Shown: piece by piece, positions 7,275 to 64,000 of the stretch
Numbering within the stretch: position 1 is the first letter of the stretch
Layout of the letters: every line of letters starts with the position of its first letter
Source of the DNA: Bathymodiolus brooksi
Taxonomy: Eukaryota; Mollusca; Bivalvia; Mytilida; Modiolidae
DNA length: 64,000 nucleotides
NCBI GenBank assembly: GCA_963680875.1
Contig: OY804590.1
Coordinates: 19,716,640 to 19,780,639, forward strand
Direction of reading: 5' to 3'
The notes under the pieces: model-generated
Databases searched by the model: none
What the model was told of the DNA's origin: nothing
The model's input: only the letters and a program-made list of their open reading frames with translations
Position numbers and translations under genes: made by a program

Positions 7275-7495
7275 GACGGGTGCCATTAGTAGAACGGAAA
7301 CTTATTACTCTTTCTGAGCACCTGAGTTCACTCCGGGTTTTGTAGGGTTCAAGTTACTCAATCTTTAGTTTTCTGTGTAGTATTTAGTAGATCATTATTT
7401 GTATTTTTGTCCTTTGGCTTTTGACCATTGTATGTCCTTTTTTGAGTTACGAATTGTTATTACCTCTTTGGTACTTTCAAACTTTTCTTTCTTAA
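7275..7495 (+). repeat. Interspersed repeat P, simple (unamplified) copy
   Basis: This copy is the reference for the window's satellites. From left to right: a head starting GACGGGTGCC (7275); S1 starting GAGTTCACTCCGGGTTTT (7324 to about 7360); S2 (about 7361-7403) ending with GTAGATCATT-like sequence; S3 (7404-7437), core TTTTGTCC...TGACCATTGTATGTCC; S4 (about 7438-7478), core GAATTGTTATTACCTCTTTG; and a tail AACTTTTCTTTC. The same order of blocks recurs at 25019-26086 and 48160-48420, and in reverse at 23334-7973. I see no coding capacity, terminal repeats or Pol III boxes, so its transposon class is unknown. It recalls a dispersed repeat common in mussel sequences, from memory only. Confidence 0.75.
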
Positions 7496-7972
7496 ATGAG
7501 TGGGAAAGTATTCTCATCAAAATATCTTTAAATTTGACAGAAATGCCTCCAAAAATGTGTTATCACTAATGCATAATATACGATAGCGATAAATAAATCC
7601 GATTTTAAAATCACAATTAATGAGACCAACCTACGAAAATCCTCAACAAATGGTATATGTTTACAGTATTGCACTAATGGAACACCAACACACACAAATA
7701 ATGCATTTACTAATTAATTACATTGTTTATAATCGTCTGAGAAAGTCTAATTAAGTAAGGATTATTCTAAAAGAGGAGTTTAAACCCATATAATTAATGA
7801 CATACGTTGAAGACCTATACAGTTTTAATTTATAGTATGTTTGGAAAAAGTTTTAAAAGCTGATATAAAACATTTTGTTATTAAGGACCCTGCTCTTTTG
7901 ATCTATGCTTCGATTTCATAAATGACGATTATACTAGGTGTCATGTTGGAGAAAGCTGGATTAAACCTGGAC
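7496..7972. other. Intergenic sequence, nothing recognised
   Basis: AT-rich and non-repetitive at the scale I can see, with no credible open frame or RNA structure. It ends where similarity to the reverse-complemented P tail begins. Confidence 0.4.
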
Positions 7973-8010
7973 TAAGAAAAGTTACACGTAGGGGTAATCA
8001 AGAATCGAAG
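7973..8010 (-). repeat. Repeat P, S4/tail end flanking the 38-bp array
   Basis: On the minus strand this reads TCCTTCGATTC, TTGATTACCCC, then AACTTTTCTTAG: the S4-to-tail order of P. It abuts the 38-bp array exactly where S3 should end, so the array sits inside this P copy, whose other side is at 23216-23334. Confidence 0.7.
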
Positions 8011-11000
8011 GACACACAATACCTTGGCCAAGACAGAAAGGACTAAAGGACACACAATACCTTGGCCAAGATAGAAAGGACTAAAGGACACACAATACCT
8101 TGGCCAAGACAGAAAGGACTAAAGGACACACAATACCTTGGCCAAGACAGAAAGGACTAAAGGACACACAATACCTTGGCCAAGACAGAAAGGACTAAAG
8201 GACACATAATACCTTGGCCAAGACAGAAAGGACTAAAGGACACATAATACCTTGGCCAAGACAGAAAGGACTAAAGGACACATAATACCTTGGCCAAGAT
8301 AGAAAGGACTAAAGGACACACAATACCTTGGCCAAGACAGAAAGGACTAAAGGACACACAATACCTTGGCCAAGACAGAAAGGGCTAAAGGACACACAAT
8401 ACCTTGGCCAAGATAGAAAGGACTAAAGGACACATAATACCTTGGCCAAGACAGAAAGGACTAAAGGACACACAATACCTTGGCCAAGATAGAAAGGTCA
8501 AGAGGACACATAATACCTTGGCCAAGATAGAAAGGTCTAAAGGACACACAATACCTTGGCCAAGACAGAAAGGACTAAAGGACACATAATACCTTGACCA
8601 AGATAGAAAGGACTAAAGGACACACAATACCTTGGCCAAGACAGAAAGGACTAAAGGACACACAATACCTTGGCCAAGACAGAAAGGACTAAAGGACACA
8701 CAATACCTTGGCCAAGACAGAAAGGACTAAAGGACACATAATACCTTGGCCAAGACAGAAAGGACTAAAGGACACATAATACCTTGGCCAATACAGAAAG
8801 GAATAAAGGACACATAATACCTTGGCCAAGACAGAAAGGACTAAAGGACACATAATAACTTGGCCAAGACAGAAAGGTCAAGAGGACACACAATGCCTTG
8901 GCCAAGACAGAAAGGACTAAAGGACACATAATACCTTGGCCAAGATAGAAAGGACTAAAGGACACACAATACCTTGGCCAAGACAGAAAGGTCAAGAGGA
9001 CACACAATACCTTGGCCAAGACAGAAAGGACTAAAGGACACACAATACCTTGGCCAAGACAGAAAGGACTAAAGGACACATAATACCTTGGCCAAGACAG
9101 AAAGGACTAAAGGACACATAATACCTTGGCCAAGACAGAAAGGTCAAGAAGACACACAATACCTTGGCCAAGATAGAAAGGTTTAAAGGACACATAATAC
9201 CTTGGCCAAGATAGAAAGGTCAAGAGGACATACAATACCTTGGCCAAGACAGAAAGGACTAAAGGACACATAATACCTTGGCCAAGACAGAAAGGACTAA
9301 AGGACACACAATACCTTGGCCAAGACAGAAAGGACTAAAGGACACACAATACCTTGGCCAAGACAGAAAGGACTAAAGGACACACAATACCTTGGCCAAG
9401 ACAGAAAGGACTAAAGGACACATAATACCTTGGCCAAGACAGAAAGGACTAAAGGACACATAATACATTGGCCAAGACAGAAAGGACTAAAGGACACATA
9501 ATACCTTGGCAAAGACAGAAAGGACTAAAGGACACACAATACCTTGGCCAAGACAGAAAGGACTAAAGGACACATAATACCTTGGCCAAGACAGAAAGGT
9601 CAAGAGGACACACAATACCTTGGCCAAGACAGAAAGGACTAAAGGACACATAATACCTTGGCCAAGATAGAAAGGACTAAAGGACACACAATACCTGGGC
9701 CAAGACAGAAAGGTCAAGAGGACACACAATACCTTGGCCAAGACAGAAAGGACTAAAGGACACACAATACCTTGGCCAAGACAGAAAGGACTAAAGGACA
9801 CATAATACCTTGGCCAAGACAGAAAGGACTAAAGGACACATAATACCTTTGCCAAGACAGAAAGGTCAAGAGGACACACAATACCTTGGCCAAGATAGAA
9901 AGGTCTAAAGGACACATAATACCTTGGCCAAGATAGAAAGGTCAAGAGGACACACAATACCTTGGCCAAGACAGAAAGGTCAAGAGGACACACAATACCT
10001 TGGCCAAGACAGAAAGGTCTAAAGGACACATAATACCTTGGCCAAGATAGAAAGGATTAAAGGACACACAATACCTTGGCCAAGACAGAAAGGTCAAGAG
10101 GACACACAATACCTTGGCCAAGACAGAAAGGTCAAGAGGACACACAATACCTTGGCCAAGACAGAAAGGTCTAAAGGACACATAATACCTTGGCCAAGAC
10201 AGAAAGGACTAAAGGACACATAATACCTTGGCCAAGATAGAAAGGACTAAAGGAAACACAATACCTTGGCCAAGACAGAAAGGTCAAGAGGACACACAAT
10301 ACCTTGGCCAAGACAGAAAGGTCAAGAGGACCCACAATACCTTGGCCAAGACAGAAAGGACTAAAGGACACACAATACCTTGGCCAAGACAGAAAGGACT
10401 AAAGGACACATAATACCTTGGCCAAGACAGAAAGGACTAAAGGACACATAATACCTTTGCCAAGACAGAAAGGTCAAGAGGACACACAATACCTTGGCCA
10501 AGATAGAAAGGACTAAAGGACACATAATACCTTGGCCAAGATAGAAAGGTCAAGAGGACACACAATACCTTGGCCAAGACAGAAAGGACTAAAGGACACA
10601 TAATACCTTGGCCAAGATAGAAAGGACTAAAGGACACACAATACCTTGGCCAAGACAGAAAGGTCAAGAGGACACACACTACCTTGGCCAAGACAGAAAG
10701 GTCAAGAGGACACACAATACCTTAGCCAAGACAGAAAGGTCTAAAGGACACATAATAACTTGGCCAAGACAGAAAGGACTAAAGGACACATAATACCTTG
10801 GCCAAGATAGAAAGGACTAAAGGAAACACAATACCTTGGCCAAGACAGAAAGGTCAAGAGGACACACAATACCTTGGCCAAGACAGAAAGGTCAAGAGGA
10901 CACACAATACCTTGGCCAAGATAGAAAGGACTAAAGGACACACAATACCTTGGCCAAGACAGAAAGGACTAAAGGACACATAATACCTTGGCCAAGATAG

Positions 11001-14000
11001 AAAGGACTAAAGGACACACAATACCTTGGCCAAGACAGAAAGGTCAAGAGGACACACAATACCTTGGCCAAGACAGAAAGGTCAAGAGGACACACAATAC
11101 CTTGGCCAAGACAGAAAGGACTAAAGGACACATAATAACTTGGCCAAGATAGAAAGGACTAAAGGACACATAATACCTTGGCCAAGATAGAAAGGACTAA
11201 AGGACACATAATACCTTGGCCAAGATAGAAAGGACTAAAGGACACATAATACCTTGGCCAAGATAGAAAGGACTAAAGGACACACAATACCTTGGCCAAG
11301 ATAGAAAGGACTAAAGGACACATAATACCTTGGCCACGATAGAAAGGACTAAAGGACACATAATACCTTGGCCAAGATAGAAAGGACTAAAGGACACATA
11401 ATACCTTGGCCAAGATAGAAAGGACTAAAGGACACATAATACCTTGGCCAAGATAGAAAGGACTAAAGGACACATAATACCTTGGCCAAGATAGAAAGGA
11501 CTAAAGGACACATACTACCTTGGCCAAGATAGAAAGGACTAAAGGACACATAATACCTTAGCCAAGATAGAAAGGACTAAAGGACACATAATACCTTGGC
11601 CAAGATAGAAAGGACTAAAGGACACATAATACCTTGGCCAAGATAGAAAGGACTAAAGGACACATAATACCTTGTCCAAGATAGAAAGGACTAAAGGACA
11701 CATAATACCTTGGCCAAGACAGAAAGGACTAAAGGACACATAATACCTTGGCCAAGACAGAAAGGACTAAAGGACACACAATACCTTGGCCAAGATAGAA
11801 AGGACTAAAGGACACATAATACCTTGGCCAAGACAGAAAGGTCAAGAGGACACACAATACCTTGGCCAAGACAGAAAGGTCAAGAGGACACACAATACCT
11901 TGGCCAAGACAGAAAGGACTAAAGGACACACAATACCTTGGCCAAGACAGAAAGGTCAAGAGGACACACAATACCTTGGCCAAGACAGAAAGGTCAAGAG
12001 GACACACAATACCTTGGCCAAGACAGAAAGGACTAAAGGACACACAATACCTTGGCCAAGACAGAAAGTTCAAGAGGACACACAATACCTTGGCCAAGAT
12101 AGAAAGGACTAAAGGACACACAATACCTTGGCCAAGATAGAAAGGACTAAAGGACACACAATACCTTGGCCAAGACAGAAAGGTCAAGAGGACACACAAT
12201 ACCTTGGTTAAGACAGAAAGGACTAAAGGACACACAATACCTTGGCCAAGACAGAAAGGTCAAGAGGACACACAATACCTTGGCCAAGACAGAAAGGTCA
12301 AGAGGACACACAATACCTTGGCCAAGACAGAAAGGACTAAAGGACACACAATACCTTGGCCAAGACAGAAAGGTCAAGAGGACACACAATACCTTGGCCA
12401 AGATAGAAAGGACTAAAGGACACACAATACCTTGGCCAAGATAGAAAGGACTAAAGGACACACAATACCTTGGCCAAGATAGAAAGGACTAAAGGACACA
12501 TAATACATTGGCCAAGATAGAAAGGACTAAAGGACACATAATACCTTGGCCAAGATAGAAAGGTCAAGAGGACACACAATACCTTGGCCAAGATAGAAAG
12601 GTCAAGAGGACACACAATACCTTGGCCAAGACAGAAAGGACTAAAGGACACACAATACCTTGGCCAAGACAGAAAGGTCAAGAGGACACACAATACCTTG
12701 GCCAAGATAGAAAGAACTAAAGGACACACAATACCTTGGCCAAGATAGAAAGGACTAAAGGACACACAATACCTTGGCCAAGACAGAAAGGTCAAGAGGA
12801 CACACAATACCTTGGCCAAGACAGAAAGGACTAAAGGACACACAATACCTTGGCCAAGACAGAAAGGTCAAGAGGACACACAATACCTTGGCCAAGACAG
12901 AAAGGTCTAAAGAACACACAATACCTTGGCCAAGACAGAAAGGACTAAAGGACACACAATACCTTGGCCAAGACAGAAAGGACTAAAGGACACACAATAC
13001 CTTGGCCAAGACAGAAAGGACTAAAGGACACACAATACCTTGGCAAAGACAGAAAGGTCAAGAGGACACACAATACCTTGGCCAAGACAGAAAGGACTAA
13101 AGGACACACAATACCTTGGCCAAGATAGAAAGGACTAAAGGACACACAATACCTTGGCCAAGACAGAAAAGACTAAAGGACACACAATACCTTGGCCAAG
13201 ATAGAAAGGACTAAAGGACACACAATACCTTGGCCAAGACAGAAAGGACTAAAGGACACACAATACCTTGGCCAAGATAGAAAGGATTAAAGGACACATA
13301 ATACCTTGGCCACGATAGAAAGGACTAAAGGACACATAATACCTTGGCCAAGATAGAAAGGACTAAAGGACACATAATACCTTGGCCAAGATAGAAAGGA
13401 CTAAAGGACACATAATACCTTGGCCAAGATAGAAAGGACTAAAGGACACATAATACCTTGGCCAAGATAGAAAGGACTAAAGGACACATACTACCTTGGC
13501 CAAGATAGAAAGGACTAAAGGACACATAATACCTTAGCCAAGATAGAAAGGACTAAAGGACACATAATACCTTGGCCAAGATAGAAAGGACTAAAGGACA
13601 CATAATACCTTGGCCAAGATAGAAAGGACTAAAGGACACATAATACCTTGTCCAAGATAGAAAGGACTAAAGGACACATAATACCTTGGCCAAGACAGAA
13701 AGGACTAAAGGACACATAATACCTTGGCCAAGACAGAAAGGACTAAAGGACACACAATACCTTGGCCAAGATAGAAAGGACTAAAGGACACATAATACCT
13801 TGGCCAAGACAGAAAGGACTAAAGGACACATAATACCTTGGCCAAGACAGAAAGGACTAAAGGACACATAATACCTTGGCCAAGACAGAAAGGTCAAGAG
13901 GACACATAATACCTTGGCCAAGACAGAAAGGTTAAGAGGACACACAATACCTTGGCCAAGACAGAAAGGTCAAGAGGACACATAATACCTTGGCCAAGAC

Positions 14001-17000
14001 AGAAAGGTCAAGAGGACACACAATACCTTGGCAAAGACAGAAAGGTCAAGAGGACACATAATACCTTGGCCAAGACAGAAAGGTCAAGAGGACACACAAT
14101 ACCTTGGCCAAGACAGAAAGGTCAAGAGGACACATAATACCTTGGCCAAGACAGAAAGGTCAAGAGGACACACAATACCTTGGCCAAGACAGAAAGGTCA
14201 AGAGGACACACAATACCTTGGCCAAGACAGAAAGGTCAAGAGGACACACAATACCTTGGCCAAGACAGAAAGGTCAAGAAGACACACAATACCTTGGCCA
14301 AGACAGAAAGGTCAAGAGGACACATAATACCTTGGCCAAGACAGAAAGGTCAAGAGGACACACAATACCTTGGCCAAGACAGAAAGGACTAAAGAACACA
14401 CAATACCTTGGCCAAGACAGAAAGGTCAAGATGACACACAATACCTTGGCCAAGACAGAAAGGTCAAGAGGACACACAATACCTTGGCCAAGACAGAAAG
14501 GACTAAAGGACACACAATACCTTGGCCAAGACAGAAAGGTCAAGAGGACACACAATACCTTGGCCAAGACAGAAAGGACTAAAGGACACACAATACCTTG
14601 GCCAAGACAGAAAGGTCAAGAGGACACACAATACATTGGCCAAGACAGAAAGGTCAAGAGGACACACAATACCTTGGCCAAGACAGAAAGGACTAAAGGA
14701 CACACAATACCTTGGCCAAGACAGAAAGGTCAAGAGGACACACAATACCTTGGCCAAGACAGAAAGGTCAAGAGGACACACAATACCTTGGCCAAGACAG
14801 AAAGGACTAAAGGACACACAATACCTTGGCCAAGACAGAAAGGTCAAGAGGACACACAATACCTTGGCCAAGACAGAAAGGTCAAGAGGACACACAATAC
14901 CTTGGCCAAGACAGAAAGGACTAAAGGACACACAATACCTTGGCCAAGACAGAAAGGTCAAGAGGACACAAAATACCTTGGCCAAGATAGAAAGGACTAA
15001 AGGACACACAATACCTTGGCCAAGATAGAAAGGACTAAAGGACACACAATACCTTGGCCAAGACAGAAAGGTCAAGAGGACACACAATACCTTGGCCAAG
15101 ACAGAAAGGACTAAAGGACACACAATACCTTGGCCAAGACAGAAAGGTCAAGAGGACACACAATACCTTGGCCAAGACAGAAAGGTCAAGAGGACACACA
15201 ATACCTTGGCCAAGACAGAAAGGACTAAAGGACACACAATACCTTGGCCAAGACAGAAAGGTCAAGAGGACACACAATACCTTGGCCAAGATAGAAAGGA
15301 CTAAAGGACACACAATACTTGGCCAAGATAGAAAGGACTAAAGGACACACAATACCTTGGCCAAGATAGAAAGGACTAAAGGACACATAATACCTTGGCC
15401 AAGATAGAAAGGACTAAAGGACACATAATACCTTGGCCAAGATAGAAAGGTCAAGAGGACACACAATACCTTGGCCAAGATAGAAAGGTCAAGAGGACAC
15501 ACAATACCTTGGCCAAGACAGAAAGGACTAAAGGACACACAATACCTTGGCCAAGACAGAAAGGTCAAGAGGACACACAATACCTTGGCCAAGATAGAAA
15601 GGACTAAAGGACACACAATACCTTGGCCAAGATAGAAAGGACTAAAGGACACACAATACCTTGGCCAAGACAGAAAGGTCAAGAGGACACACAATACCTT
15701 GGCCAAGACAGAAAGGACTAAAGGACACACAATACCTTGGCCAAGACAGAAAGGTCAAGAGGACACACAATACCTTGGCCAAGACAGAAAGGTCTAAAGA
15801 ACACACAATACCTTGGCCAAGACAGAAAGGACTAAAGGACACACAATACCTTGGCCAAGACAGAAAGGACTAAAGGACACACAATACCTTGGCCAAGACA
15901 GAAAGGACTAAAGGACACACAATACCTTGGCAAAGACAGAAAGGTCAAGAGGACACACAATACCTTGGCCAAGACAGAAAGGACTAAAGGACACACAATA
16001 CCTTGGCCAAGATAGAAAGGACTAAAGGACACACAATACCTTGGCCAAGACAGAAAAGACTAAAGGACACACAATACCTTGGCCAAGATAGAAAGGACTA
16101 AAGGACACACAATACCTTGGCCAAGACAGAAAGGACTAAAGGACACACAATACCTTGGCCAAGATAGAAAGGACTAAAGGACACATAATACCTTGGCCAC
16201 GATAGAAAGGACTAAAGGACACATAATACCTTGGCCAAGATAGAAAGGACTAAAGGACACATAATACCTTGGCCAAGATAGAAAGGACTAAAGGACACAT
16301 AATACCTTGGCCAAGATAGAAAGGACTAAAGGACACATAATACCTTGGCCAAGATAGAAAGGACTAAAGGACACATACTACCTTGGCCAAGATAGAAAGG
16401 ACTAAAGGACACATAATACCTTAGCCAAGATAGAAAGGACTAAAGGACACATAATACCTTGGCCAAGATAGAAAGGACTAAAGGACACATAATACCTTGG
16501 CCAAGATAGAAAGGACTAAAGGACACATAATACCTTGTCCAAGATAGAAAGGACTAAAGGACACATAATACCTTGGCCAAGACAGAAAGGACTAAAGGAC
16601 ACATAATACCTTGGCCAAGACAGAAAGGACTAAAGGACACACAATACCTTGGCCAAGATAGAAAGGACTAAAGGACACATAATACCTTGGCCAAGACAGA
16701 AAGGACTAAAGGACACATAATACCTTGGCCAAGACAGAAAGGACTAAAGGACACATAATACCTTGGCCAAGACAGAAAGGACTAAAGGACACATAATACC
16801 TTGGCCAAGACAGAAAGGACTAAAGGACACACAATACCTTGGCCAAGATAGAAAGGACTAAAGGACACATAATACCTTGGCCAAGACAGAAAGGACTAAA
16901 GGACACATAATACCTTGGCCAAGACAGAAAGGACTAAAGGACACATAATACCTTGGCCAAGACAGAAAGGTCAAGAGGACACATAATACCTTGGCCAAGA

Positions 17001-20000
17001 CAGAAAGGTTAAGAGGACACACAATACCTTGGCCAAGACAGAAAGGTCAAGAGGACACATAATACCTTGGCCAAGACAGAAAGGTCAAGAGGACACACAA
17101 TACCTTGGCAAAGACAGAAAGGTCAAGAGGACACATAATACCTTGGCCAAGACAGAAAGGTCAAGAGGACACACAATACCTTGGCCAAGACAGAAAGGTC
17201 AAGAGGACACATAATACCTTGGCCAAGACAGAAAGGTCAAGAGGACACACAATACCTTGGCCAAGACAGAAAGGTCAAGAGGACACACAATACCTTGGCC
17301 AAGACAGAAAGGTCAAGAGGACACACAATACCTTGGCCAAGACAGAAAGGTCAAGAAGACACACAATACCTTGGCCAAGACAGAAAGGTCAAGAGGACAC
17401 ATAATACCTTGGCCAAGACAGAAAGGTCAAGAGGACACACAATACCTTGGCCAAGACAGAAAGGACTAAAGGACACACAATACCTTGGCCAAGACAGAAA
17501 GGTCAAGATGACACACAATACCTTGGCCAAGACAGAAAGGTCAAGAGGACACACAATACCTTGGCCAAGACAGAAAGGACTAAAGGACACACAATACCTT
17601 GGCCAAGACAGAAAGGTCAAGAGGACACACAATACCTTGGCCAAGACAGAAAGGACTAAAGGACACACAATACCTTGGCCAAGACAGAAAGGTCAAGAGG
17701 ACACACAATACATTGGCCAAGACAGAAAGGTCAAGAGGACACACAATACCTTGGCCAAGACAGAAAGGTCAAGAGGACACACAATACCTTGGCCAAGACA
17801 GAAAGGTCAAGAGGACACACAATACCTTGGCCAAGACAGAAAGGACTAAAGGACACACAATACCTTGGCCAAGACAGAAAGGTCAAGAGGACACACAATA
17901 CCTTGGCCAAGACAGAAAGGTCAAGAGGACACACAATACCTTGGCCAAGACAGAAAGGACTAAAGGACACACAATACCTTGGCCAAGACAGAAAGGTCAA
18001 GAGGACACACAATACCTTGGCCAAGATAGAAAGGACTAAAGGACACACAATACCTTGGCCAAGATAGAAAGGACTAAAGGACACACAATACCTTGGCCAA
18101 GACAGAAAGGTCAAGAGGACACACAATACCTTGGCCAAGACAGAAAGGACTAAAGGACACACAATACCTTGGCCAAGACAGAAAGGTCAAGAGGACACAC
18201 AATACCTTGGCCAAGACAGAAAGGTCAAGAGGACACACAATACCTTGGCCAAGACAGAAAGGACTAAAGGACACACAATACCTTGGCCAAGACAGAAAGG
18301 TCAAGAGGACACACAATACCTTGGCCAAGATAGAAAGGACTAAAGGACACACAATACTTGGCCAAGATAGAAAGGACTAAAGGACACACAATACCTTGGC
18401 CAAGATAGAAAGGACTAAAGGACACATAATACCTTGGCCAAGATAGAAAGGACTAAAGGACACATAATACCTTGGCCAAGATAGAAAGGTCAAGAGGACA
18501 CACAATACCTTGGCCAAGATAGAAAGGTCAAGAGGACACACAATACCTTGGCCAAGACAGAAAGGACTAAAGGACACACAATACCTTGGCCAAGACAGAA
18601 AGGTCAAGAGGACACACAATACCTTGGCCAAGATAGAAAGGACTAAAGGACACACAATACCTTGGCCAAGATAGAAAGGACTAAAGGACACACAATACCT
18701 TGGCCAAGACAGAAAGGTCAAGAGGACACACAATACCTTGGCCAAGACAGAAAGGACTAAAGGACACACAATACCTTGGCCAAGACAGAAAGGTCAAGAG
18801 GACACACAATACCTTGGCCAAGACAGAAAGGTCTAAAGAACACACAATACCTTGGCCAAGACAGAAAGGACTAAAGGACACACAATACCTTGGCCAAGAC
18901 AGAAAGGACTAAAGGACACACAATACCTTGGCCAATACAGAAAGGACTAAAGGACACACAATACCTTGGCAAAGACAGAAAGGTCAAGAGGACACACAAT
19001 ACTTTGGCCAAGACAGAAAGGACTAAAGGACACACAATACCTTGGCCAAGACAGAAAGGACTAAAGGACACACAATACCTTGGCCAAGACAGAAAAGACT
19101 AAAGGACACACAATACCTTGGCCAAGATAGAAAGGACTAAAGGACACACAATACCTTGGCCAAGACAGAAAGGACTAAAGGACACACAATACCTTGGCCA
19201 AGACAGAAAGGACTAAAGGACACACAATACCTTGGCAAAGACAGAAAGGTCAAGAGGACACACAATACCTTGGCCAAGACAGAAAGGTCAAGAGGACACA
19301 CAATACCTTGGCCAAGACAGAAAGGACTAAAGGACACACAATACCTTGGCCAAGACAGAAAGTTCAAGAGGACACACAATACCTTGGCCAAGATAGAAAG
19401 GACTAAAGGACACACAATACCTTGGCCAAGATAGAAAGGACTAAAGGACACACAATACCTTGGCCAAGACAGAAAGGTCAAGAGGACACACAATACCTTG
19501 GTTAAGACAGAAAGGACTAAAGGACACACAATACCTTGGCCAAGACAGAAAGGTCAAGAGGACACACAATACCTTGGCCAAGACAGAAAGGTCAAGAGGA
19601 CACACAATACCTTGGCCAAGACAGAAAGGACTAAAGGACACACAATACCTTGGCCAAGACAGAAAGGTCAAGAGGACACACAATACCTTGGCCAAGATAG
19701 AAAGGACTAAAGGACACACAATACCTTGGCCAAGATAGAAAGGACTAAAGGACACACAATACCTTGGCCAAGATAGAAAGGACTAAAGGACACATAATAC
19801 CTTGGCCAAGATAGAAAGGACTAAAGGACACATAATACCTTGGCCAAGATAGAAAGGTCAAGAGGACACACAATACCTTGGCCAAGATAGAAAGGTCAAG
19901 AGGACACACAATACCTTGGCCAAGACAGAAAGGACTAAAGGACACACAATACCTTGGCCAAGACAGAAAGGTCAAGAGGACACACAATACCTTGGCCAAG

Positions 20001-23215: not shown

Positions 23216-23334
23216 CTAAGATCTACCAAACACTACACAGCAAACTAAAGATTGAGCAACAGGAACCCACACTAAAAACCTGGATGAACTCAAATGCTAC
23301 AGAAATGTTAACTGTTCCTCTAGTAACACCCGTC
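23216..23334 (-). repeat. Repeat P, head/S1/S2 end flanking the 38-bp array
   Basis: On the minus strand from 23334 it reads GACGGGTGTTACTAGAGGAA, then TTGAGTTCATCCAGG, GGGTTCCTGTTGCTCAATC and TTTAGTTTGCTGTGTAGTG, the head-S1-S2 order of P. It leads straight into the 38-bp units. With 7973-8010 it brackets the array as one P copy interrupted by S3 amplification. An open frame at 23146-23460 crosses this junction and is not credible as a gene. Confidence 0.75.
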
Positions 23335-46526: not shown

Positions 46527-46534
46527 TTAACTAT

Positions 46535-51400: not shown

Positions 51401-54400
51401 TTGACGGATTCTGATTACCCCTATGATATCTTAGATTTATGGATTCTGATTACCCCTATGATATCTTAGATTTACGGATTCTGATTGCCCCTATGATATC
51501 TTAGGCTTACGGATTCTGATTACCCCTATGGTATCTTAGATTTACGGATTTTGATTGCCCCTATGATATCTTAGATTTACGGATTCTGATTACCCCTATA
51601 ATATCTTAGATTTACCGATTCTGATTACCCCTATGATATCTTAGATTTACGGATTCTGATTACCCCTATGATATCTTAGATTTACGGATTCTGATTACCC
51701 CTATGATATCTTAGATTTACGGATTCTGATTACACCTATGATATCTTAGATTTACGGAATCTGATTGCCCCTATGATATCTTAGATTTACGGATTCTGAT
51801 TGTCCCTACGATATCTTAGATTTACGGATTCTGATTACCCCGTTGATATCTTAGATTTACGGATTCTGATTACCCCTATGATAACTTAGATTTACGGATT
51901 CTGATTACCCCTATGATGTCTTAGATTTACGGATTCTGATTACCCCTATGCTATCTTAGATTTACGGATTCTGATTACCCCTATGATATCTTAGATTTAC
52001 GGATTCTGATTACCCCGTTGATATCTTAGATTTACGGATTCTGATTACCCCGTTGATATCTTACATTTACGGATTCTGATTGCCCCTATGATATCTTAGA
52101 TTTACAGATTCTGAATACCCCTATGATGTCTTAAATTTACGGATTCTGATTACCCCTATGATATCTTAGATTTACGGATTCTGATTACTCCTATTATATC
52201 TTAGATTTACGGATTCTGATTACCCCTATGATATCTTAGAATTACGGATTCTGATTACCCCGTTGATATCTTAGATTTACGGATTCTGATTACCCCTATG
52301 ATAACTTAGATTTACGGATTCTGATTACCCCTATGATGTCTTAGATTTACGGATTCTGATTACCCCTATGCTATCTTAGATTTACGGATTCTGATTACCC
52401 CTATGATATCTTAGATTTACGGATTCTAATTACCCCGTTGATATCTTAGATTTACGGATTCTGATTACCCCGTTGATATCTTACATTTACGGATTCTGAT
52501 TGCCCCTATGATATCTTAGATTTACAGATTCTGAATACCCCTATGATGTCTTAAATTTACGGATTCTGATTACCCCTATGATATCTTAGATTTACGGATT
52601 CTGATTACCCCTATGATATCTTAGAATTACGGATTCTGATTACCCCGTTGATATCTTAGAGTTACGCTTCTGATTACCCCTATGATATCTTAGATTTACG
52701 GATTCTGATTACGCCGTTGATATCTTAGATTTACGGATTCTGATTACCCCTATGATATCTTAGATTTACGGATTCTGATTACCCCTATGATGTCTTAGAT
52801 TTACGGATTCTGATTACCCCTATGCTATCTTAGATTTACGGATTCTGATTACCCCTATGATATCTTAGATTTACGGATTCTGATTACCCCGTTGATATCT
52901 TAGATTTACGGATTCTGATTACCCCGTTGATATCTTACATTTACGGATTCTGATTGCCCCTATGATATCTTAGATTTACAGATTCTGAATACCCCTATGA
53001 TGTCTTAAATTTACGGATTCTGATTACCCCTATGATATCTTAGATTTACGGATTCTGATTACTCCTATTATATCTTAGATTTACGGATTCTGATTACCCC
53101 TATGATATCTTAGAATTACGGATTCTGATTACCCCGTTGGTATCTTAGATTTACGGATTCTGATTACCCCTATGATATCTTAAATTTACGGATTCTGATT
53201 ACCCCTATGATATCTTAGATTTACGGATTCTGATTACCCCTATGATATCTTAGAGTTACGCTTCTGATTACCCCTATGATATCTTAGATTTACGGATTCT
53301 GATTACGCCGTTGATATCTTAGATTTACGGATTCTGATTACCCCTATGATATCTTAGATTTACGGATTCTGATTACCCCTATGGTATCTTGGATTTACGG
53401 ATTCTGAATTCCCCTATGATATCTTAGATTTACGGATTCTGATTACCCCTATGATATCTTAGATTGACGGATTTTGATTACCCCTATGATATCTTAGATT
53501 TATGGATTCTGATTACCCCTATGATATCTTAGATTTACGGATTCTGATTGCCCCTATGATATCTTAGGCTTACGGATTCTGATTACCCCTATGGTATCTT
53601 AGATTTACGGATTTTGATTGCCCCTATGATATCTTAGATTTACGGATTCTGATTACCCCTATAATATCTTAGATTTACGGATTCTGATTACCCCTATGAT
53701 ATCTTAGATTTACGGATTCTGATTACCCCTATGATATCTTAGATTTACGGATTCTGATTACCCCTATGATATCTTAGATTTACGGATTCTGATTACACCT
53801 ATGATATCTTAGATTTACGGATTCTGATTACCCCGTTGATATCTTACATTTACGGATTCTGATTGCCCCTATGATATCTTAGATTTACAGATTCTGAATA
53901 CCCCTATGATGTCTTAAATTTACGGATTCTGATTACCCCTATGATATCTTAGATTTACGGATTCTGATTACTCCTATTATATCTTAGATTTACGGATTCT
54001 GATTACCCCTATGATATCTTAGAATTACGGATTCTGACTACCCCGTTGATATCTTAGAGTTACGCTTCTGATTACCCCTATGATATCTTAGATTTACGGA
54101 TTCTGATTACGCCGTTGATATCTTAGATTTACGGATTCTGATTACCCCTATGATATCTTAGATTTACGGATTCTGATTACCCCAATGATCTCTTAGATTT
54201 ACGGATTCTGATTACCTCTATGGTATCTTAGATTTACGGATTCTGATTACCTCTATGATAACTTAGATTTACGGATTCTAATTACCCCTAAGATATCTTA
54301 GATTTACGGATTCTGATTACCCCTATGATATCTTAGATTTACGGATTCTGATTACCCCTATGATATCTTAGATTTACGGATTCTGATTTCCCCGTTGATA

Positions 54401-57400
54401 TCTTAGATTTACGGATTCTGATTACCCCTATGATATCTTAGATTTACGGATTCTGATTACCCCTATGATATCTTAGATTTACGGATTCTGATTACCCCTA
54501 TGATATCTTATAGTTACGGCTTCTGATTACCCCTATGATATCTTAGATTGACGGATTCTGATTACCCCTATGATATCTTAGATTTATGGATTCTGATTAC
54601 CCCTATGATATCTTAGATTTACGGATTCTGATTGCCCCTATGATATCTTAGGCTTACGGATTCTGATTACCCCTATGGTATCTTAGATTTACGGATTTTG
54701 ATTGCCCCTATGATATCTTAGATTTACGGATTCTGATTACCCCTATAATATCTTAGATTTACGGATTCTGATTACCCCTATGATATCTTAGATTTACGGA
54801 TTCTGATTACCCCTATGATATCTTAGATTTACGGATTCTGATTACCCCTATGATATCTTAGATTTACGGATTCTGATTACACCTATGATATCTTAGATTT
54901 ACGGAATCTGATTGCCCCTATGATATCTTAGATTTATGGATTCTGATTGTCCCTACGATATCTTAGATTTACGGATTCTGATTACCCCGTTGATATCTTA
55001 GATTTACGGATTCTGATTACCCCTATGATATCTTAGATTTACGGATTCTGATTTCCCCGTTGATATCTTAGATTTACGGATTCTGATTACCCCTATGATA
55101 TCTTAGATTTACGGATTCTGATTACCCCTATGATATCTTAGATTTACGGATTCTGATTACCCCTATGATATCTTATAGTTACGGCTTCTGATTACCCCTA
55201 TGATATCTTAGATTGACGGATTCTGATTACCCCTATGATATCTTAGATTTATGGATTCTGATTACCCCTATGATATCTTAGATTTACGGATTCTGATTGC
55301 CCCTATGATATCTTAGGCTTACGGATTCTGATTACCCCTATGGTATCTTAGATTTACGGATTTTGATTGCCCCTATGATATCTTAGATTTACGGATTCTG
55401 ATTACCCCTATAATATCTTAGATTTACGGATTCTGATTACCCCTATGATATCTTAGATTTACGGATTCTGATTACCCCTATGATATCTTAGATTTACGGA
55501 TTCTGATTACCCCTATGATATCTTAGATTTACGGATTCTGATTACACCTATGATATCTTAGATTTACGGAATCTGATTGCCCCTATGATATCTTAGATTT
55601 ACGGATTCTGATTGTCCCTATGATATCTTAGATTTACGGATTCTGATTACCCCGTTGATATCTTAGATTTACGGATTCTGATTACCCCGTTGATATCTTA
55701 CATTTACGGATTCTGATTGCCCCTATGATATCTTAGATTTACAGATTCTGAATACCCCTATGATGTCTTAAATTTACGGATTCTGATTACCCCTATGATA
55801 TCTTAGATTTACGGATTCTGATTACTCCTATTATATCTTAGATTTACGGATTCTGATTACCCCTATGATATCTTAGAATTACGGATTCTGATTACCCCGT
55901 TGATATCTTAGATTTACGGATTCTGATTACCCCTATGATAACTTAGATTTACGGATTCTGATTACCCCTATGATGTCTTAGATTTACGGATTCTGATTAC
56001 CCCTATGCTATCTTAGATTTACGGATTCTGATTACCCCTATGATATCTTAGATTTACGGATTCTGATTACCCCGTTGATATCTTAGATTTACGGATTCTG
56101 ATTACCCCGTTGATATCTTACATTTACGGATTCTGATTGCCCCTATGATATCTTAGATTTACAGATTCTGAATACCCCTATGATGTCTTAAATTTACGGA
56201 TTCTGATTACCCCTATGATATCTTAGATTTACGGATTCTGATTACTCCTATTATATCTTAGATTTACGGATTCTGATTACCCCTATGATATCTTAGAATT
56301 ACGGATTCTGATTACCCCGTTGATATCTTAGAGTTACGCTTCTGATTACCCCTATGATATCTTAGATTTACGGATTCTGATTACGCCGTTGATATCTTAG
56401 ATTTACGGATTCTGATTACCCCTATGATATCTTAGATTTACGGATTCTGATTACCCCTATGGTATCTTGGATTTACGGATTCTGATTTCCCCTATGATAT
56501 CTTAGATTTACGGATTCTGATTACCCCTATGATATCTTAGATTTACGGATTCTGATTACCCCTATGATATCTTAGATTTACGGATTCTGATTACCCCAAT
56601 GATATCTTAGATTTACGGATTCTGATTACCTCTATGGTATCTTAGATTTACGGATTCTGATTACCTCTATGATAACTTAGATTTACGGATTCTAATTACC
56701 CCTAAGATATCTTAGATTTACGGATTCTGATTACCCCTATGATATCTTAGATTTACGGATTCTGATTACCCCTATGATATCTTAGATTTACGGATTCTGA
56801 TTTCCCCGTTGATATCTTAGATTTACGGATTCTGATTACCCCTATGATATCTTAGATTTACGGATTCTGATTACCCCTATGATATCTTAGATTTACGGAT
56901 TCTGATTACCCCTATGATATCTTAGAGTTACGGCTTCTGATTACCCCTATGATATCTTAGATTTACGGATTCTGATTACCCCGTTGATATCTTAGATTTA
57001 CGGATTCTGATTACCCCGTTGATATCTTACATTTACGGATTCTGATTGCCCCTATGATATCTTAGATTTACAGATTCTGAATACCCCTATGATGTCTTAA
57101 ATTTACGGATTCTGATTACCCCTATGATATCTTAGATTTACGGATTCTGATTACTCCTATTATATCTTAGATTTACGGATTCTGATTACCCCTATGATAT
57201 CTTAGAATTACGGATTCTGATTACCCCGTTGATATCTTAGATTTACGGATTCTGATTACCCCTATGATATCTTAAATTTACGGATTCTGATTACCCCTAT
57301 GATATCTTAGATTTACGGATTCTGATTACCCCTATGATATCTTAGAGTTACGCTTCTGATTACCCCTATGATATCTTAGATTTACGGATTCTGATTACGC

Positions 57401-60400
57401 CGTTGATATCTTAGATTTACGGATTCTGATTACCCCTATGATATCTTAGATTTACGGATTCTGATTACCCCTATGGTATCTTGGATTTACGGATTCTGAT
57501 TTCCCCTATGATATCTTAGATTTACGGATTCTGATTACCCCTATGGTATCTTAGATTTACGGATTCTGATTACCCCTATGATATCTTAGATTTACGGATT
57601 CTGATTACCCCAATGATATCTTAGATTTACGGATTCTGATTACCTCTATGGTATCTTAGATTTACGGATTCTGATTACCTCTATGATAACTTAGATTTAC
57701 GGATTCTAATTACCCCTAAGATATCTTAGATTTACGGATTCTGATTACCCCTATGATATCTTAGATTTACGGATTCTGATTACCCCTATGATATCTTAGA
57801 TTTACGGATTCTGATTTCCCCGTTGATATCTTAGATTTACGGATTCTGATTACCCCTATGATATCTTAGATTTACGGATTCTGATTACCCCTATGATATC
57901 TTAGATTTACGGATTCTGATTACCCCTATGATATCTTAGAGTTACGGCTTCTGATTACCCCTATGATATCTTAGATTTACGGATTCTGATTACCCCGTTG
58001 ATATCTTAGATTTACGGATTCTGATTACCCCGTTGATATCTTAGATTTACGGATTCTGATTACCCCTATGATATCTTAGATTTACGGATTCTGATTACCC
58101 CTATGATATCTTAGATTTACGGATTCTGATTACCCCTATGATATCTTAGATTTATGGATTCTGATTACCTATGATATCTTAGATTTACGGATTCTGATTA
58201 CCCCTATGATATCTTTTAGATTTACGGATTCTGATTACCCCAATGATATCTTAGATTTACGGATTCTGATTACCCCTATGATATCTTAGATTTACGGATT
58301 CTGATTACCCCTATGGTATCTTAGATTTACGGATTCTGATTACCTCTATGACATCTTAGATTTACGGATTCTGATTACCTCTATGATATCTTACATTTAC
58401 GGATTCTGATTACCCCGTTGATATCTTAGATTTACGGATTCTGATTACCCCTATGATATCTTAGATTTACGGATTCTGATTACCCCTATGATATCTTAGA
58501 TTTACGGATTCTGATTACCCCTTATGATATCTTAGATTTACGGATTCTGATTACCCTTATGATATCTTAGATTTACGGATTCTGATTACCCCTATGATGT
58601 CTTAGATTTACGGATTCTGATTACCCCTATGATGTCTTAGATTTACGGATTCTGATTACCCCTATGATATCTTAGATTTACGTATTCTGATTACCCCTAT
58701 GATATCTTAGATTTACGGATTCTGATTACCCCTATGATATCTTAGATTTACGAATTCTGATTACCCCGTTGATATCTTAGATTTACGGATTCTGATTACC
58801 CCGTTGATATCTTAGATTTACGGATTCTGATTACCCCTATGCTATCTTAGATTTACGGATTCTGATTACCCGTATACTATCTTAGATTTACGGATTATGA
58901 TTGCCCCTATGATATTTTAGATTTACGGATTCTGATTGCCCCTATGCTATCTTAGATTTACGAATTCTGATTGCCCCTATGATATCTTAGATTTACGGAT
59001 TCTGATTGCCCCTATGATATCTTAGATTTACGGACTCTGATTGCCCCTATGATATCTTAGATTTACCGATTCTGATTGCCCCTATGATATCTCAGATTTA
59101 CGGATTCTGATTACCCCTATGATATCTTAGATTTACGGATTCTGATTGCCCCTATGATATCTTAGATTTACGGATTCTGATTACCCCGTTGATATCTTAG
59201 ATTTACGGATTCTGATTACCCCTATGATATCTTAGATTTACGGATTCTGATTACCCCTATGATATCTGAGATTTACGGATTCTGATTACCCCTATGATAT
59301 CTTAGAGTTACGGCTTCTGATTACCCCTATGATATCTTAGATTTACGGATTCTGATTACCCCTATGATATCTTAGATTTACGGATTCTGATTACCCCTAT
59401 GATATCTTAGATTTGCGGATTCTGATTACCCCTATGGTATCTTAGATTTACGGATTCTGATTTCCCCTATGGTATCTTAGATTTACGGATTATGATTACC
59501 CCTATGATATCTTAGATTTACGGATTCTGATTACCCCTATGATATCTTAGATTTACGGATTCTGATTACCCCGTTGATATCTTAGATTTACGGATTCTGA
59601 TTACCTCTATGGTATCTTAGATTTACGGATTCTGATTACCTCTATGATATCTTAGATTTACGGATTCTGATTACCCATATGATATCTTAGATTTACGGAT
59701 TCTGATTACCCCTATGATATCTTACATTTACGGATTCTGATTACCCCGTTGATATCTTAGATTTACGGATTCTGATTACCCCTATGATATCTTAGATTTA
59801 CGGATTCTGATTACCCCTATGATATCTTAGATTTACGGATTCTGATTACCCCTATGATATCTTTGAGTTACGGATTCTGATTACCCCTATGATATCTTAG
59901 ATTTACGGATTCTGATTACCCCGTTGATATCTTAGATTTACGGATTCTGATTACCCCTATGATATCTTAGATTAATGGATTCTGATTACCCCTATGATAT
60001 CTTAGATTTATGGATTCTGATTACCTATGATATCTTAGATTTACGGATTCTGATTACCCCTATGATATCTTAGATTTACGGATTCTGATTACCCCTATGA
60101 TATCTTAGATTTACCGATTCTGATTACCCCTATGATATCTTAGATTAACGGATTCTGATTACCCCTATGATATCTTAGATTTACGGATTCTGATTACCCC
60201 GTTGATATCTTACATTTACGGATTCTGATTGCCCCTATGATATCTTAGATTTACAGATTCTGAATACCCCTATGATGTCTTAAATTTACGGATTCTGATT
60301 ACCCCTATGATATCTTAGATTTACGGATTCTGATTACTCCTATTATATCTTAGATTTACGGATTCTGATTACCCCTATGATATCTTAGAATTACGGATTC

Positions 60401-63400
60401 TGATTACCCCGTTGATATCTTAGATTTACGGATTCTGATTACCCCTATGATATCTTAAATTTACGGATTCTGATTACCCCTATGATATCTTAGATTTACG
60501 GATTCTGATTACCCCTATGATATCTTAGAGTTACGCTTCTGATTACCCCTATGATATCTTAGATTTACGGATTCTGATTACGCCGTTGATATCTTAGATT
60601 TACGGATTCTGATTACCCCTATGATATCTTAGATTTACGGATTCTGATTACCCCTATGGTATCTTGGATTTACGGATTCTGATTTCCCCTATGATATCTT
60701 AGATTTACGGATTCTGATTACCCCGTTGATATCTTAGATTTACGGATTCTGATTACCCCTATGATATCTTAGATTTACGGATTCTGATTACCCCTATGAT
60801 ATCTTAGATTTACGGATTCTGATTACCCCTATGATATCTTTGAGTTACGGATTCTGATTACCCCTATGATATCTTAGATTTACGGATTCTGATTACCCCG
60901 TTGATATCTTAGATTTACGGATTCTGATTACCCCTATGATATCTTAGATTTATGGATTCTGATTACCCCTATGATATCTTAGATTTATGGATTCTGATTA
61001 CCTATGATATCTTAGATTTACGGATTCTGATTACCCCTATGATATCTTAGATTTACGGATTCTGATTACCCCTATGATATCTTAGATTTACCGATTCTGA
61101 TTACCCCTATGATATCTTAGATTAACGGATTCTGATTACCCCTATGATATCTTAGATTTACGGATTCTGATTACCCCGTTGATATCTTACATTTACGGAT
61201 TCTGATTGCCCCTATGATATCTTAGATTTACAGATTCTGAATACCCCTATGATGTCTTAAATTTACGGATTCTGATTACCCCTATGATATCTTAGATTTA
61301 CGGATTCTGATTACTCCTATTATATCTTAGATTTACGGATTCTGATTACCCCTATGATATCTTAGAATTACGGATTCTGATTACCCCGTTGATATCTTAG
61401 ATTTACGGATTCTGATTACCCCTATGATATCTTAAATTTACGGATTCTGATTACCCCTATGATATCTTAGATTTACGGATTCTGATTACCCCTATGATAT
61501 CTTAGAGTTACGCTTCTGATTACCCCTATGATATCTTAGATTTACGGATTCTGATTACGCCGTTGATATCTTAGATTTACGGATTCTGATTACCCCTATG
61601 ATATCTTAGATTTACGGATTCTGATTACCCCTATGGTATCTTGGATTTACGGATTCTGATTTCCCCTATGATATCTTAGATTTACGGATTCTGATTACCC
61701 CTATGATATCTTAGATTGACGGATTTTGATTACCCCTATGATATCTTAGATTTATGGATTCTGATTACCCCTATGATATCTTAGATTTACGGATTCTGAT
61801 TGCCCCTATGATATCTTAGGCTTACGGATTCTGATTACCCCTATGGTATCTTAGATTTACGGATTTTGATTGCCCCTATGATATCTTAGATTTACGGATT
61901 CTGATTACCCCTATAATATCTTAGATTTACGGATTCTGATTACCCCTATGATATCTTAGATTTACGGATTCTGATTACCCCTATGATATCTTAGATTTAC
62001 GGATTCTGATTACCCCTATGATATCTTAGATCTACGGATTCTGATTACACCTATGATATCTTAGATTTACGGATTCTGATTACCCCGTTGATATCTTACA
62101 TTTACGGATTCTGATTGCCCCTATGATATCTTAGAATTACGGATTCTGACTACCCCGTTGATATCTTAGAGTTACGCTTCTGATTACCCCTATGATATCT
62201 TAGATTTACGGATTCTGATTACGCCGTTGATATCTTAGATTTACGGATTCTGATTACCCCTATGATATCTTAGATTTACGGATTCTGATTACCCCAATGA
62301 TCTCTTAGATTTACGGATTCTGATTACCTCTATGGTATCTTAGATTTACGGATTCTGATTACCTCTATGATAACTTAGATTTACGGATTCTAATTACCCC
62401 TAAGATATCTTAGATTTACGGATTCTGATTACCCCTATGATATCTTAGATTTACGGATTCTGATTACCCCTATGATATCTTAGATTTACGGATTCTGATT
62501 TCCCCGTTGATATCTTAGATTTACGGATTCTGATTACCCCTATGATATCTTAGATTTACGGATTCTGATTACCCCTATGATATCTTAGATTTACGGATTC
62601 TGATTACCCCTATGATATCTTATAGTTACGGCTTCTGATTACCCCTATGATATCTTAGATTGACGGATTCTGATTACCCCTATGATATCTTAGATTTATG
62701 GATTCTGATTACCCCTATGATATCTTAGATTTACGGATTCTGATTGCCCCTATGATATCTTAGGCTTACGGATTCTGATTACCCCTATGGTATCTTAGAT
62801 TTACGGATTTTGATTGCCCCTATGATATCTTAGATTTACGGATTCTGATTAACCCTATAATATCTTAGATTTACGGATTCTGATTACCCCTATGATATCT
62901 TAGATTTACGGATTCTGATTACCCCTATGATATCTTAGATTTACGGATTCTGATTACCCCTATGATATCTTAGATTTACGGATTCTGATTACACCTATGA
63001 TATCTTAGATTTACGGAATCTGATTGCCCCTATGATATCTTAGATTTACGGATTCTGATTGTCCCTACGATATCTTAGATTTACGGATTCTGATTACCCC
63101 GTTGATATCTTAGATTTACGGATTCTGATTACCCCTATGATATCTTAGATTTACGGATTCTGATTTCCCCGTTGATATCTTAGATTTACGGATTCTGATT
63201 ACCCCTATGATATCTTAGATTTACGGATTCTGATTACCCCTATGATATCTTAGATTTACGGATTCTGATTACCCCTATGATATCTTATAGTTACGGCTTC
63301 TGATTACCCCTATGATATCTTAGATTGACGGATTCTGATTACCCCTATGATATCTTAGATTTATGGATTCTGATTACCCCTATGATATCTTAGATTTACG

Positions 63401-64000
63401 GATTCTGATTGCCCCTATGATATCTTAGGCTTACGGATTCTGATTACCCCTATGGTATCTTAGATTTACGGATTTTGATTGCCCCTATGATATCTTAGAT
63501 TTACGGATTCTGATTACCCCTATAATATCTTAGATTTACCGATTCTGATTACCCCTATGATATCTTAGATTTACGGATTCTGATTACCCCTATGATATCT
63601 TAGATTTACGGATTCTGATTACCCCTATGATATCTTAGATTTACGGATTCTGATTACACCTATGATATCTTAGATTTACGGAATCTGATTGCCCCTATGA
63701 TATCTTAGATTTACGGATTCTGATTGTCCCTACGATATCTTAGATTTACGGATTCTGATTACCCCGTTTATATCTTAGATTTACGGATTCTGATTACCCC
63801 TATGATAACTTAGATTTACGGATTCTGATTACCCCTATGATGTCTTAGATTTACGGATTCTGATTACCCCTATGCTATCTTAGATTTACGGATTCTGATT
63901 ACCCCTATGATATCTTAGATTTACGGATTCTGATTACCCCGTTGATATCTTAGATTTACGGATTCTGATTACACCTATGATATCTTAGATTTACGGATTC
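48421..64000 (+). repeat. 35-bp satellite array, about 445 units, runs off the window (P segment S4)
   Basis: The unit is TTAGATTTACGGATTCTGAT followed by TACCCCTATGATATC, 35 bp, with occasional 34-bp (GAGTTACGCTTCTG) and 31-32-bp (TACCTATGATATC) units. It aligns with S4 of repeat P (GATTTACGACTTTTGATTACC at 26036, CCCCTTTGGTATC) and begins exactly where S4 should follow the S3 at 48384-48422. Common variants are CCCCGTTGATATC, TTGCCCC, TGATGTC, AGGCTTACGG and TATAGTTACGGC; they recur in fixed order as higher-order blocks. The array is stop-rich, with no long open frames. The far end is outside the window. Confidence 0.95.

Follow-up and report, generated by a model that had tools for sequence, protein, structure and literature searches.

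Five satellites of a Bathymodiolus brooksi contig match different parts of one retroelement 3' tail

The stretch of DNA analysed here (64,000 nucleotides, hereafter the window) holds five tandem arrays with units of 38, 86, 39, 120 and 35 bp, which match different sub-segments of a single 225-bp, T-rich sequence, P. According to TRF, these arrays together cover 48,031 of the 64,000 bases, in agreement with the initial annotation, which had put their share at about 48 of 64 kb and derived all five from P. We consider it rather probable that the five satellites are expansions of different sub-segments of one retroelement tail, and that they arose once the element had inserted, through slippage or unequal exchange. 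By COI (99%), the host is very likely a deep-sea mussel of the genus Gigantidas, whereas typing of a bacterial-looking contig (C78) gave no host identity.

The satellites of the window and their flanks

As the initial annotation had proposed, the monomers were aligned to a genomic P consensus with a shuffled control, namely 2,000 dinucleotide-preserving shuffles per monomer. The consensus was built from 30 genomic copies, which are the better matches to the simple copy at 7275 and not a random sample. No shuffle scored as well as any of the five monomers, the weakest match being that of the 120-mer (Table 1). By contrast, the 31-bp and 53-bp arrays of the window, taken as controls, failed the same test (255 and 642 of 2,000 shuffles as good, respectively). 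Scores against the 7275 copy alone were weaker (z 3.1 to 6.4; of 500 shuffles, 1, 2, 0, 1 and 0 did as well as the 38-, 86-, 39-, 120- and 35-mer), hence the use of the consensus. For the 7275 copy, 40 genomic places were scored, itself included, out of 2,697 first-look candidates.

Table 1. Features of the window (S1 to S4, sub-segments of P)
Feature	Positions	Strand	Part of P	Evidence
Simple unexpanded P copy (retroelement 3' tail)	7275..7495	+	1-225	consensus match from 7272, 80%
Possible P remnant, weak, P-3' side of 38-bp array	7979..8006	-	188-213	within 1 base of array; 9/300 shuffles as good
38-bp satellite	8008..23214	-	~126-174 (S3)	TRF ~400 copies; z 8.4, 0/2,000 shuffles as good
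P, P-5' side of 38-bp array	23215..23334	-	4-129	reaches array edge; score 133 vs shuffle maximum 57; 0/300
P, 5' side of 86-bp array	25033..25168	+	~34-172	score 184 vs shuffle maximum 58
86-bp array	25169..25994	+	~115-225 (S3+S4+tail), joined head to tail	TRF 9.6 copies, 99% matches; z 10.6, 0/2,000 shuffles
P, 3' side of 86-bp array	25995..26078	+	120-223	score 100 vs shuffle maximum 58; 0/300
39-bp array	29746..30525	+	53-92 (S1)	TRF 20 copies; z 10.3, 0/2,000 shuffles
120-bp satellite	30516..46164	+	~52-177 (S1+S2+S3)	TRF 130 copies, 98% matches; z 5.9, 0/2,000 shuffles
Two 167-bp copies after 120-bp array	46204..46515	+		no P relation established
Diverged P-like piece	46549..46711	+	7-162	score 74 vs shuffle maximum 55
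P, then second P piece	48249..48421	+	94-215, then ~113-172	older duplication, ~105-107-bp spacing, leads into 35-bp array
35-bp satellite	48422..64000	+	~176-213 (S4)	TRF 446 copies, reaching window end; z 11.2, 0/2,000 shuffles

It is very unlikely that the array lengths stem from misassembly or that the likeness to P is a low-complexity similarity between T-rich sequences. P is indeed T-rich, long arrays are hard to assemble, and the array copy numbers are those of the assembly, but the segment matches are independent of array length, and this explanation is at odds with the dinucleotide shuffles, with the control arrays in the window and at sampled loci, and with the many P-matching loci, which lie on different chromosomes.

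P had also been said to flank both the 38- and the 86-bp arrays on both sides. This is true of the 86-bp array, the only one in the window with clear P sequence at both edges, whereas the 38-bp array has a clear P flank on one side and a weak one on the other. The 39-bp array shows no P flank by a strict criterion on either side and continues directly into the 120-bp array, of which it is the P-like 5' neighbour. P lies to the left of the 35-bp array, whose right end is beyond the window. At the gathering threshold, Rfam gave no match in the whole window, and ARAGORN found no tRNA.

The parent element and P-derived arrays at other loci

Directly upstream of P is a reading frame that ends in KFYGRHHDLVD.YGI.VSQMTTDMF. 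One locus (L112) holds at 2783-3859 a reverse transcriptase (RT) frame with a YIDD motif (PF00078, E 9e-5, below Pfam's cut-off), and P starts at 3869. The upstream fragment of L112 itself gave no Pfam hit; three of the six scanned relatives of the upstream frame match GIY-YIG (PF01541), two of them, which were picked for that label, above the cut-off. P belongs to a very abundant retroelement, of which it forms the 3' tail and whose class is likely Penelope-like; P is a dispersed repeat, as initially annotated, but not a free-standing one. Naiad-type Penelope-like elements, which are abundant in invertebrates, carry GIY-YIG N-terminal to RT, and the order of frames observed here would fit this type. 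Literature searches returned, among the matches listed, no satellites from the tails of Naiad-type elements.

The view that P copies repeatedly seed satellites, with varying breakpoints, was borne out beyond the window. Arrays read at 25 fetched loci comprise further P-derived arrays of 13 unit lengths (22, 29, 30, 32, 35, 37, 38, 42, 46, 49, 50, 52 and 59 bp), lying in register inside P copies at most testable loci; with the window, this makes 16 unit lengths, from 22 to 120 bp, at unrelated loci. A 66-bp unit was read from site spacing alone. The same segment of P occurs with different unit lengths, and certain lengths are seen again at many loci. Since monomers of the window (L113-L130) or junction patterns (L131-L137) served to find the loci, these are P-like by ascertainment, and only their flanks and unit lengths count as evidence. 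The monomer searches skip very common words and did not return the 35- and 38-bp arrays of the window itself.

Among 30 arrays (both arrays of L118 being merged, likewise those of L120), P adjoins 17 of 22 at the 5' edge and 14 of 21 at the 3' edge; leaving out the 120-bp array, which has another array as its 5' neighbour, brings the former count to 16 of 21. By contrast, 20 control arrays, taken in both orientations, had P at the 5' edge in 2 of 37 cases and at the 3' edge in none of 37 (Fisher about 1e-8 for each side). The sequences seen to flank the arrays are P and, farther upstream, an RT frame.

A census of 20 fetched P-holding loci (180 kb) found 2 of 37 arrays to be P-like at 1 in 1,000 shuffles, indicating that most arrays there do not come from P. 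The proportion in the window is higher (5/7; Fisher 0.0004), this p value being after the fact, as the arrays were the reason for choosing the window. A 56-bp array (L009) and a 92-bp array (L024) pass the threshold, with 1/1,000 each, and stand outside the 16 unit lengths; the 54-bp array of L020 and the 30/73-bp arrays of L023 look P-like by eye, fall below the threshold and were left out of the counts.

The converse order of events, in which the satellites preceded the retroelement tail and supplied the monomers to build it, would account for the presence in P of pieces of all five satellites. It appears highly improbable, however, given that the arrays are embedded in P copies in register, P carrying on at the side where it would be expected, that one segment occurs with several unit lengths, and that P pieces outnumber P-like arrays by 62 to 2 in the 180 kb of the census, whose loci were picked by likeness to the simple copy.

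Internal repeats, junctions and order of events

The longest direct repeats in P are GTTGTYTGTCCTT and TGTCCTTYTTC, with spacings of 38 and 30 bp; when the 116 offsets from 15 to 130 are ranked by their longest one-mismatch direct repeat, these two come first and second. They equal the two units of 38 and 30 bp that are formed from S3, each present at several loci. In S4, shorter imperfect repeats loosely fit the 22- and 35-bp units. No comparable internal repeat of P was found for S1 or for the 86- and 120-bp units, so that their breaks look little guided; at offsets 37, 39, 42, 46, 49, 86 and 120 the internal repeats are just 3-5 bp long and rank 86th to 115th of 116. All observed units taken together, the enrichment in internal repeats is modest (p 0.005 and 0.02), as is the microhomology at the breakpoints (1.69 bp versus 0.89, 49/5,000; none exact for the 35-bp unit). 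Some satellite unit lengths are likely owed to short repeats that pre-existed inside the tail.

Junctions between units were then counted as sites, not loci, about 100 of each pattern being listed. The 38-bp junction occurs at 975 sites (32 bases, 2 mismatches allowed) and the 35-bp junction at 352 (1 mismatch allowed), and 98 of the 100 exact sites listed for the 30-bp junction fall in runs at 7 loci. An invented 45-bp junction, under a stricter setting (40 bases, 2 mismatches allowed), gave no site, nor did any of the patterns when reversed. Two counts were set aside. The 30-bp pattern has 13,809 sites in all, but with 1 mismatch it also fits a single-copy tail that has lost 8 bp. The S3/S4 boundary, at 21,105 sites, is no measure of unexpanded copies, since expanded ones (L128, L131) keep this boundary at the array end.

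Single-copy tails also vary in length. Six of 41 have lost at least 6 bases in P 119-172, and two of these six lost exactly 8 bp, the spacing of adjacent TGTCCTTT copies, as slippage would give. None of the 41 spanning copies gained 10 bases or more in this interval, a count that leaves aside array-bearing copies, which would be split.

Finally, the age of the duplications was considered. The two units of the L130 dimer are identical at 32 of 32 positions while the host P copy is 82% like the consensus (chance 5e-6 if duplicated before insertion); for the L128 dimer the values are 49/51 and 93% (chance 0.026). Both dimers are thus more alike than their host copies suggest, and the two duplications are probably younger than the insertion of P, as judged from these sequences. 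The test comprises two dimers and equates distance from the consensus with the time elapsed after insertion, an assumption that would break down for an old subfamily or under gene conversion. Homogenisation makes the large arrays undatable.

These dimers bear on a rival scheme, in which a few retroelement copies gained tandem tails once and spread by retrotransposition, the satellites growing from the short arrays thus inherited, a route described for the Ogre elements of plants. We regard it as unlikely as a general account, but several observations speak for it: equal unit lengths occur at several loci, the 35-bp arrays share at many loci a TATCTT|AGATTT junction, and the first unit in L113, L114 and L116 lacks the A that follows the break, which an independent origin at each locus leaves unexplained. 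L113-L116 were found with a query carrying this A. Excess identity is slightly higher between arrays (0.029) than for generic pairs (0.015). On the other hand, the L128 and L130 dimers look younger than their insertions, and the 35-bp class has differing junction letters and variants (A, C, T; GATATA, GGCTTC). In addition, each of the 9 array-bearing P copies has a generic copy as its closest match over P 1-124, a weak argument as 49 of 58 rows are generic. One 35-bp class may nevertheless descend from such a master copy.

Under expansion after insertion, the reading we prefer, a retroelement with a single-copy tail P would insert, and slippage or unequal exchange inside the inserted tail would likely duplicate a sub-segment, partly between short direct repeats. 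The array would grow through further unequal exchange. Duplication of blocks of many monomers would follow, leaving higher-order patterns as well as exact repeats several kilobases apart. In the window, exact 120-mers recur at offsets 2887, 3077 and 3039 in the 38-bp satellite and at 665, 977 and 3812 in the 35-bp satellite.

Related systems and implications

The statement that no such element was known proved too strong, for nine satellites of Lathyrus sativus have been traced to tandem repeats in Ogre LTR retrotransposons (PMC7004042). The likeness lies in several satellites with different monomers coming from the 3' end of one retroelement group, and in arrays that occasionally expand at dispersed copies; in the plant, this expansion is restricted to centromeric or heterochromatic regions. 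Ogre, however, is an LTR retrotransposon whose 3'UTR already carries short tandem arrays, whereas P's parent is likely Penelope-like, the simple copies sampled have a single-copy tail, and two of the units equal the spacing of direct repeats inside the tail. Work on Helentron/Cg_HINE elements of oysters (PMC7492417) likewise describes bivalve satellite-like arrays inside mobile elements and dispersed with them; these are DNA transposons with central arrays that form part of the element, whereas many segments of one retroelement tail are amplified here. For the MITE miDNA4 of Xenopus, short direct repeats of at least 5 bases are proposed to drive internal array growth, as summarised in the review PMC12628747, but there a single captured repeat lies between AT-rich direct repeats, whereas P yields many units from one tail. 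What is new here is the probable origin of several satellites from one retroelement 3' end in an animal and in another element class, the plant case being already known.

Satellite birth usually goes unseen because old arrays lose their source. Here, a single genome holds the source, many copies, dimers, short arrays and 15-kb arrays, which makes birth, breakpoint choice and growth measurable. There is a warning in this for satellite catalogues: satellites whose units look unrelated and that are listed as distinct families may be the same sequence cut at different points, and units of equal length at separate loci may arise without shared descent. Tentatively, and with more doubt than confidence, the tail can be seen as a pre-loaded satellite generator, in which the spacing of internal repeats would preset the monomers, so that the same satellites could arise at unrelated loci without common descent. 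If so, the same satellites would arise in related mussels too, again without common descent.

Five arrays and the element tail they share

The initial annotation described five satellites in the window, each built from its own part of a dispersed repeat, P, whose successive sub-segments are called S1 to S4. P proves to be the 225-bp 3' tail of an abundant retroelement. TRF recovered the arrays (48,031 bases in total), the monomers all beat 2,000 of 2,000 dinucleotide shuffles against the P consensus, and the segments assigned to them were those already named: S3 for the 38-bp unit, S3, S4 and tail for the 86-bp unit, S1 for the 39-bp unit, S1 to S3 for the 120-bp unit and S4 for the 35-bp unit. 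Neither the 31-bp nor the 53-bp array of the window outscored all shuffles against that consensus. P had also been said to flank the 38- and 86-bp arrays on both sides; this is clear for the 86-bp array, and for the 38-bp array one side is clear and the other weak. The 35-bp array has a clear P flank on its left. The 39-bp array merges into the 120-bp array and shows no P flank by the strict test.

The window lies at G000:C19:19716640-19780639 in a genome of 2.0 Gb. COI on the mitochondrial-type contig C136 shares 99% identity, across 97% of the query, with a cluster of 61 proteins led by Gigantidas vrijenhoeki, and no more than 89% with the other mussels listed, which makes Gigantidas or a near relative very likely the host. 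The simple P copy gave 2,697 first-look candidates, among which 40 places were scored. Alignment of 30 copies delimited the 225-bp tail by a sharp 3' boundary; in the other direction conservation extends beyond the tail and takes in the close of an upstream reading frame (KFYGRHHDLVD.YGI.VSQMTTDMF at loci L024 and L112). A 97-residue query from this frame end gave 45,573 first-look candidates, and all 150 that were scored matched. At L112, P starts 10 bases past a reverse transcriptase (RT) frame with YIDD, whose match to PF00078 (E 9e-5) lies below Pfam's cut-off; when six relatives of the frame preceding the RT were scanned, three matched GIY-YIG, two of them above the cut-off. We take this GIY-YIG/RT order to resemble that of Naiad elements. 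A passage in PMC12910113 gives GIY-YIG as a mark of Penelope-like elements. Twenty loci yielded 62 P pieces, 32 of them full, 18 without the 5' end, 7 without the 3' end and 5 without either, a slight bias in the direction expected for a retroelement 3' end.

Coordinates of features in the window and at other loci of the same genome
Feature	Location	Strand	Remark
Simple P copy	window 7275-7495		
LINE-like RT frame	window 519-1016, picking up again near 4254-5642	+	YADD; region 1-5642 judged by eye from the frames to be a nested insertion
LINE-like frames	window 1099-4036	-	YADD; break into the + strand frame
53-bp array, three copies	window 26925-27084		second dispersed element with tandem core, not P-like
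Near-identical 53-bp unit	L020:3664-3823	reverse complement	
31-bp array, 14 copies	window 29056-29489		unlike P; used as control
167-bp unit, two copies	window 46204-46515		between 120-bp array and diverged P-like piece
218-bp higher-order repeat	L137 (G000:C1:112560000-112560900)		
Two runs of S3/S4 boundary sites	G000:C1:150129693-150216092		many about 66-bp multiples apart among matches listed; probably 66-bp P arrays
38-bp-type matches	G000:C4:145499990-145554525		spread across about 54 kb, of which 3 kb was read (L129); a further large S3 array
S3 pieces among 35-bp units	L131		132- and 202-bp patterns, P 3' end at close
Single-copy tails lacking exactly 8 bp	L010:4590, L018:5003		deletion counterpart of the proposed slippage
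Bacterial oxidase genes	G000:C78 (L029, L031)		one product 83% like a Vibrio protein; bacterial contaminant or associate

P-like arrays across the genome

A genome scan with three monomers as queries found arrays elsewhere; a P-like array (0/500 shuffles each) is present in all 18 loci read, and since these were picked with window monomers, P-likeness is expected by choice, while the varied unit lengths are not built in. Outside the window, units measure 30, 42, 46, 49, 50 and 52 bp for S1 (39 bp in the window), 29, 30, 37 and 38 bp for S3, 22 and 35 bp for S4, and 59 bp for S3+S4; seven junction-pattern loci add a 32-bp unit, one more 37-bp array and the 218-bp higher-order repeat of L137. 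Unit lengths read directly, window included, number 16. One P segment thus recurs with differing unit lengths, which bears out the proposal that the breakpoint differs each time. By the strict flank test on 30 arrays, P adjoins the 5' edge in 17 of 22 testable cases and the 3' edge in 14 of 21, against 2/37 and 0/37 for control arrays (n=20, both orientations). The 5' count includes the 120-bp array, which has another array next to it; leaving it out gives 16 of 21.

At the 1 in 1,000 level, 2 of 37 arrays were P-like in 20 loci (180 kb) chosen for P copies, versus 5 of 7 in the window. Most arrays of that sample are not P-derived, and the window, itself selected for its arrays, is a cluster of P-like ones; a centromeric or heterochromatic setting, like that of the Lathyrus sativus satellites discussed below, may be the reason.

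Birth, unit length and growth of the arrays

Only two of the 30 arrays, L128 and L130, have fewer than 2.5 copies. The two 30-bp units of L130 are identical over 32 bases in a host P copy 82% like the consensus, and the two 38-bp units of L128 differ at 2 of 51 bases, their host copy being 93% like it. Because these identities exceed those expected had duplication accompanied insertion (about 68% for L130 and 87% for L128; chance 5e-6 and 0.026), they suggest duplication in place, after insertion, assuming that consensus distance reflects time since insertion and that gene conversion is absent. Alternatively, a few master copies could have gained tandem tails once and spread them by retrotransposition. 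The nearest relative of array-bearing P copies was a simple copy in 9 of 9 cases, but 49 of 58 rows were simple; same-unit pairs (n=7) had excess ancestry of -0.006 to 0.046, none clear, with generic pairs at 0.015 (sd 0.025) and low power.

Many 35-bp arrays, those of L113, L114 and L116 among them, have the junction TATCTT|AGATTT in common, a sign against in-place birth at each locus. A shorter P variant, CCTT(A/C)GATTT, occurs at 5,640 sites (at most two mismatches), with C in most listed one-mismatch sites; in the window and at L115, its A form could yield the junction by way of CTT repeated at a distance of 35 bp. This route fails for the other three loci, where the A of the junction is absent from the first unit and a master copy or between-locus exchange is likely.

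As to what sets unit length, P compared with itself has its longest one-mismatch direct repeat (13 bp) at offset 38 and the next longest (11 bp) at offset 30, among 116 offsets; these two spacings are also the lengths of the units that build the L137 higher-order repeat. The 38-bp junction has 975 sites in the genome and an invented offset-45 junction none, a rough contrast given the longer, stricter pattern of the latter. For the 30-bp junction, 98 of 100 listed exact sites fall in runs at seven loci, many 30 apart; 13,809 sites with up to two mismatches were dropped as support, since a single-copy tail shorter by 8 bp fits with one mismatch. At least 6 bases are missing from the S3-region stretch in 6 of 41 single-copy tails, and exactly 8 in two, a loss equal to the distance from one TGTCCTTT copy to the adjacent one. 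Unit and repeat are not linked in general, because P self-comparison gave no good internal repeat for S1, 86- or 120-bp units and enrichment over all pooled units was modest (p 0.005 and 0.02).

Exact words of 120 to 150 bases recur at offsets including 2887 and 3077 in the 38-bp array, 1199 and 1557 in the 120-bp array, and 665 and 3812 in the 35-bp array. Such recurrences fit enlargement by block duplication, which would proceed through unequal exchange.

Relation to known satellites

In a literature search covering few subscription journals, no paper was found on Naiad or Penelope-like elements in bivalves or on Gigantidas satellites, and no title among the matches listed for Penelope and satellites concerned this case. 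Passages in PMC7004042 report that 9 of 11 Lathyrus sativus satellites derive from tandem repeats of Ogre elements, and part of PMC7492417 describes oyster Helentrons carrying satellite-like arrays. Sections of a review (PMC12628747) name LINE untranslated regions among the origins of satellites and suggest that short direct repeats may act as triggers, with Penelope unmentioned in those sections. Since satellites from retroelement 3' ends are already known, and this particular case was not among the reports found, the satellites that match P are a variation on a known phenomenon.
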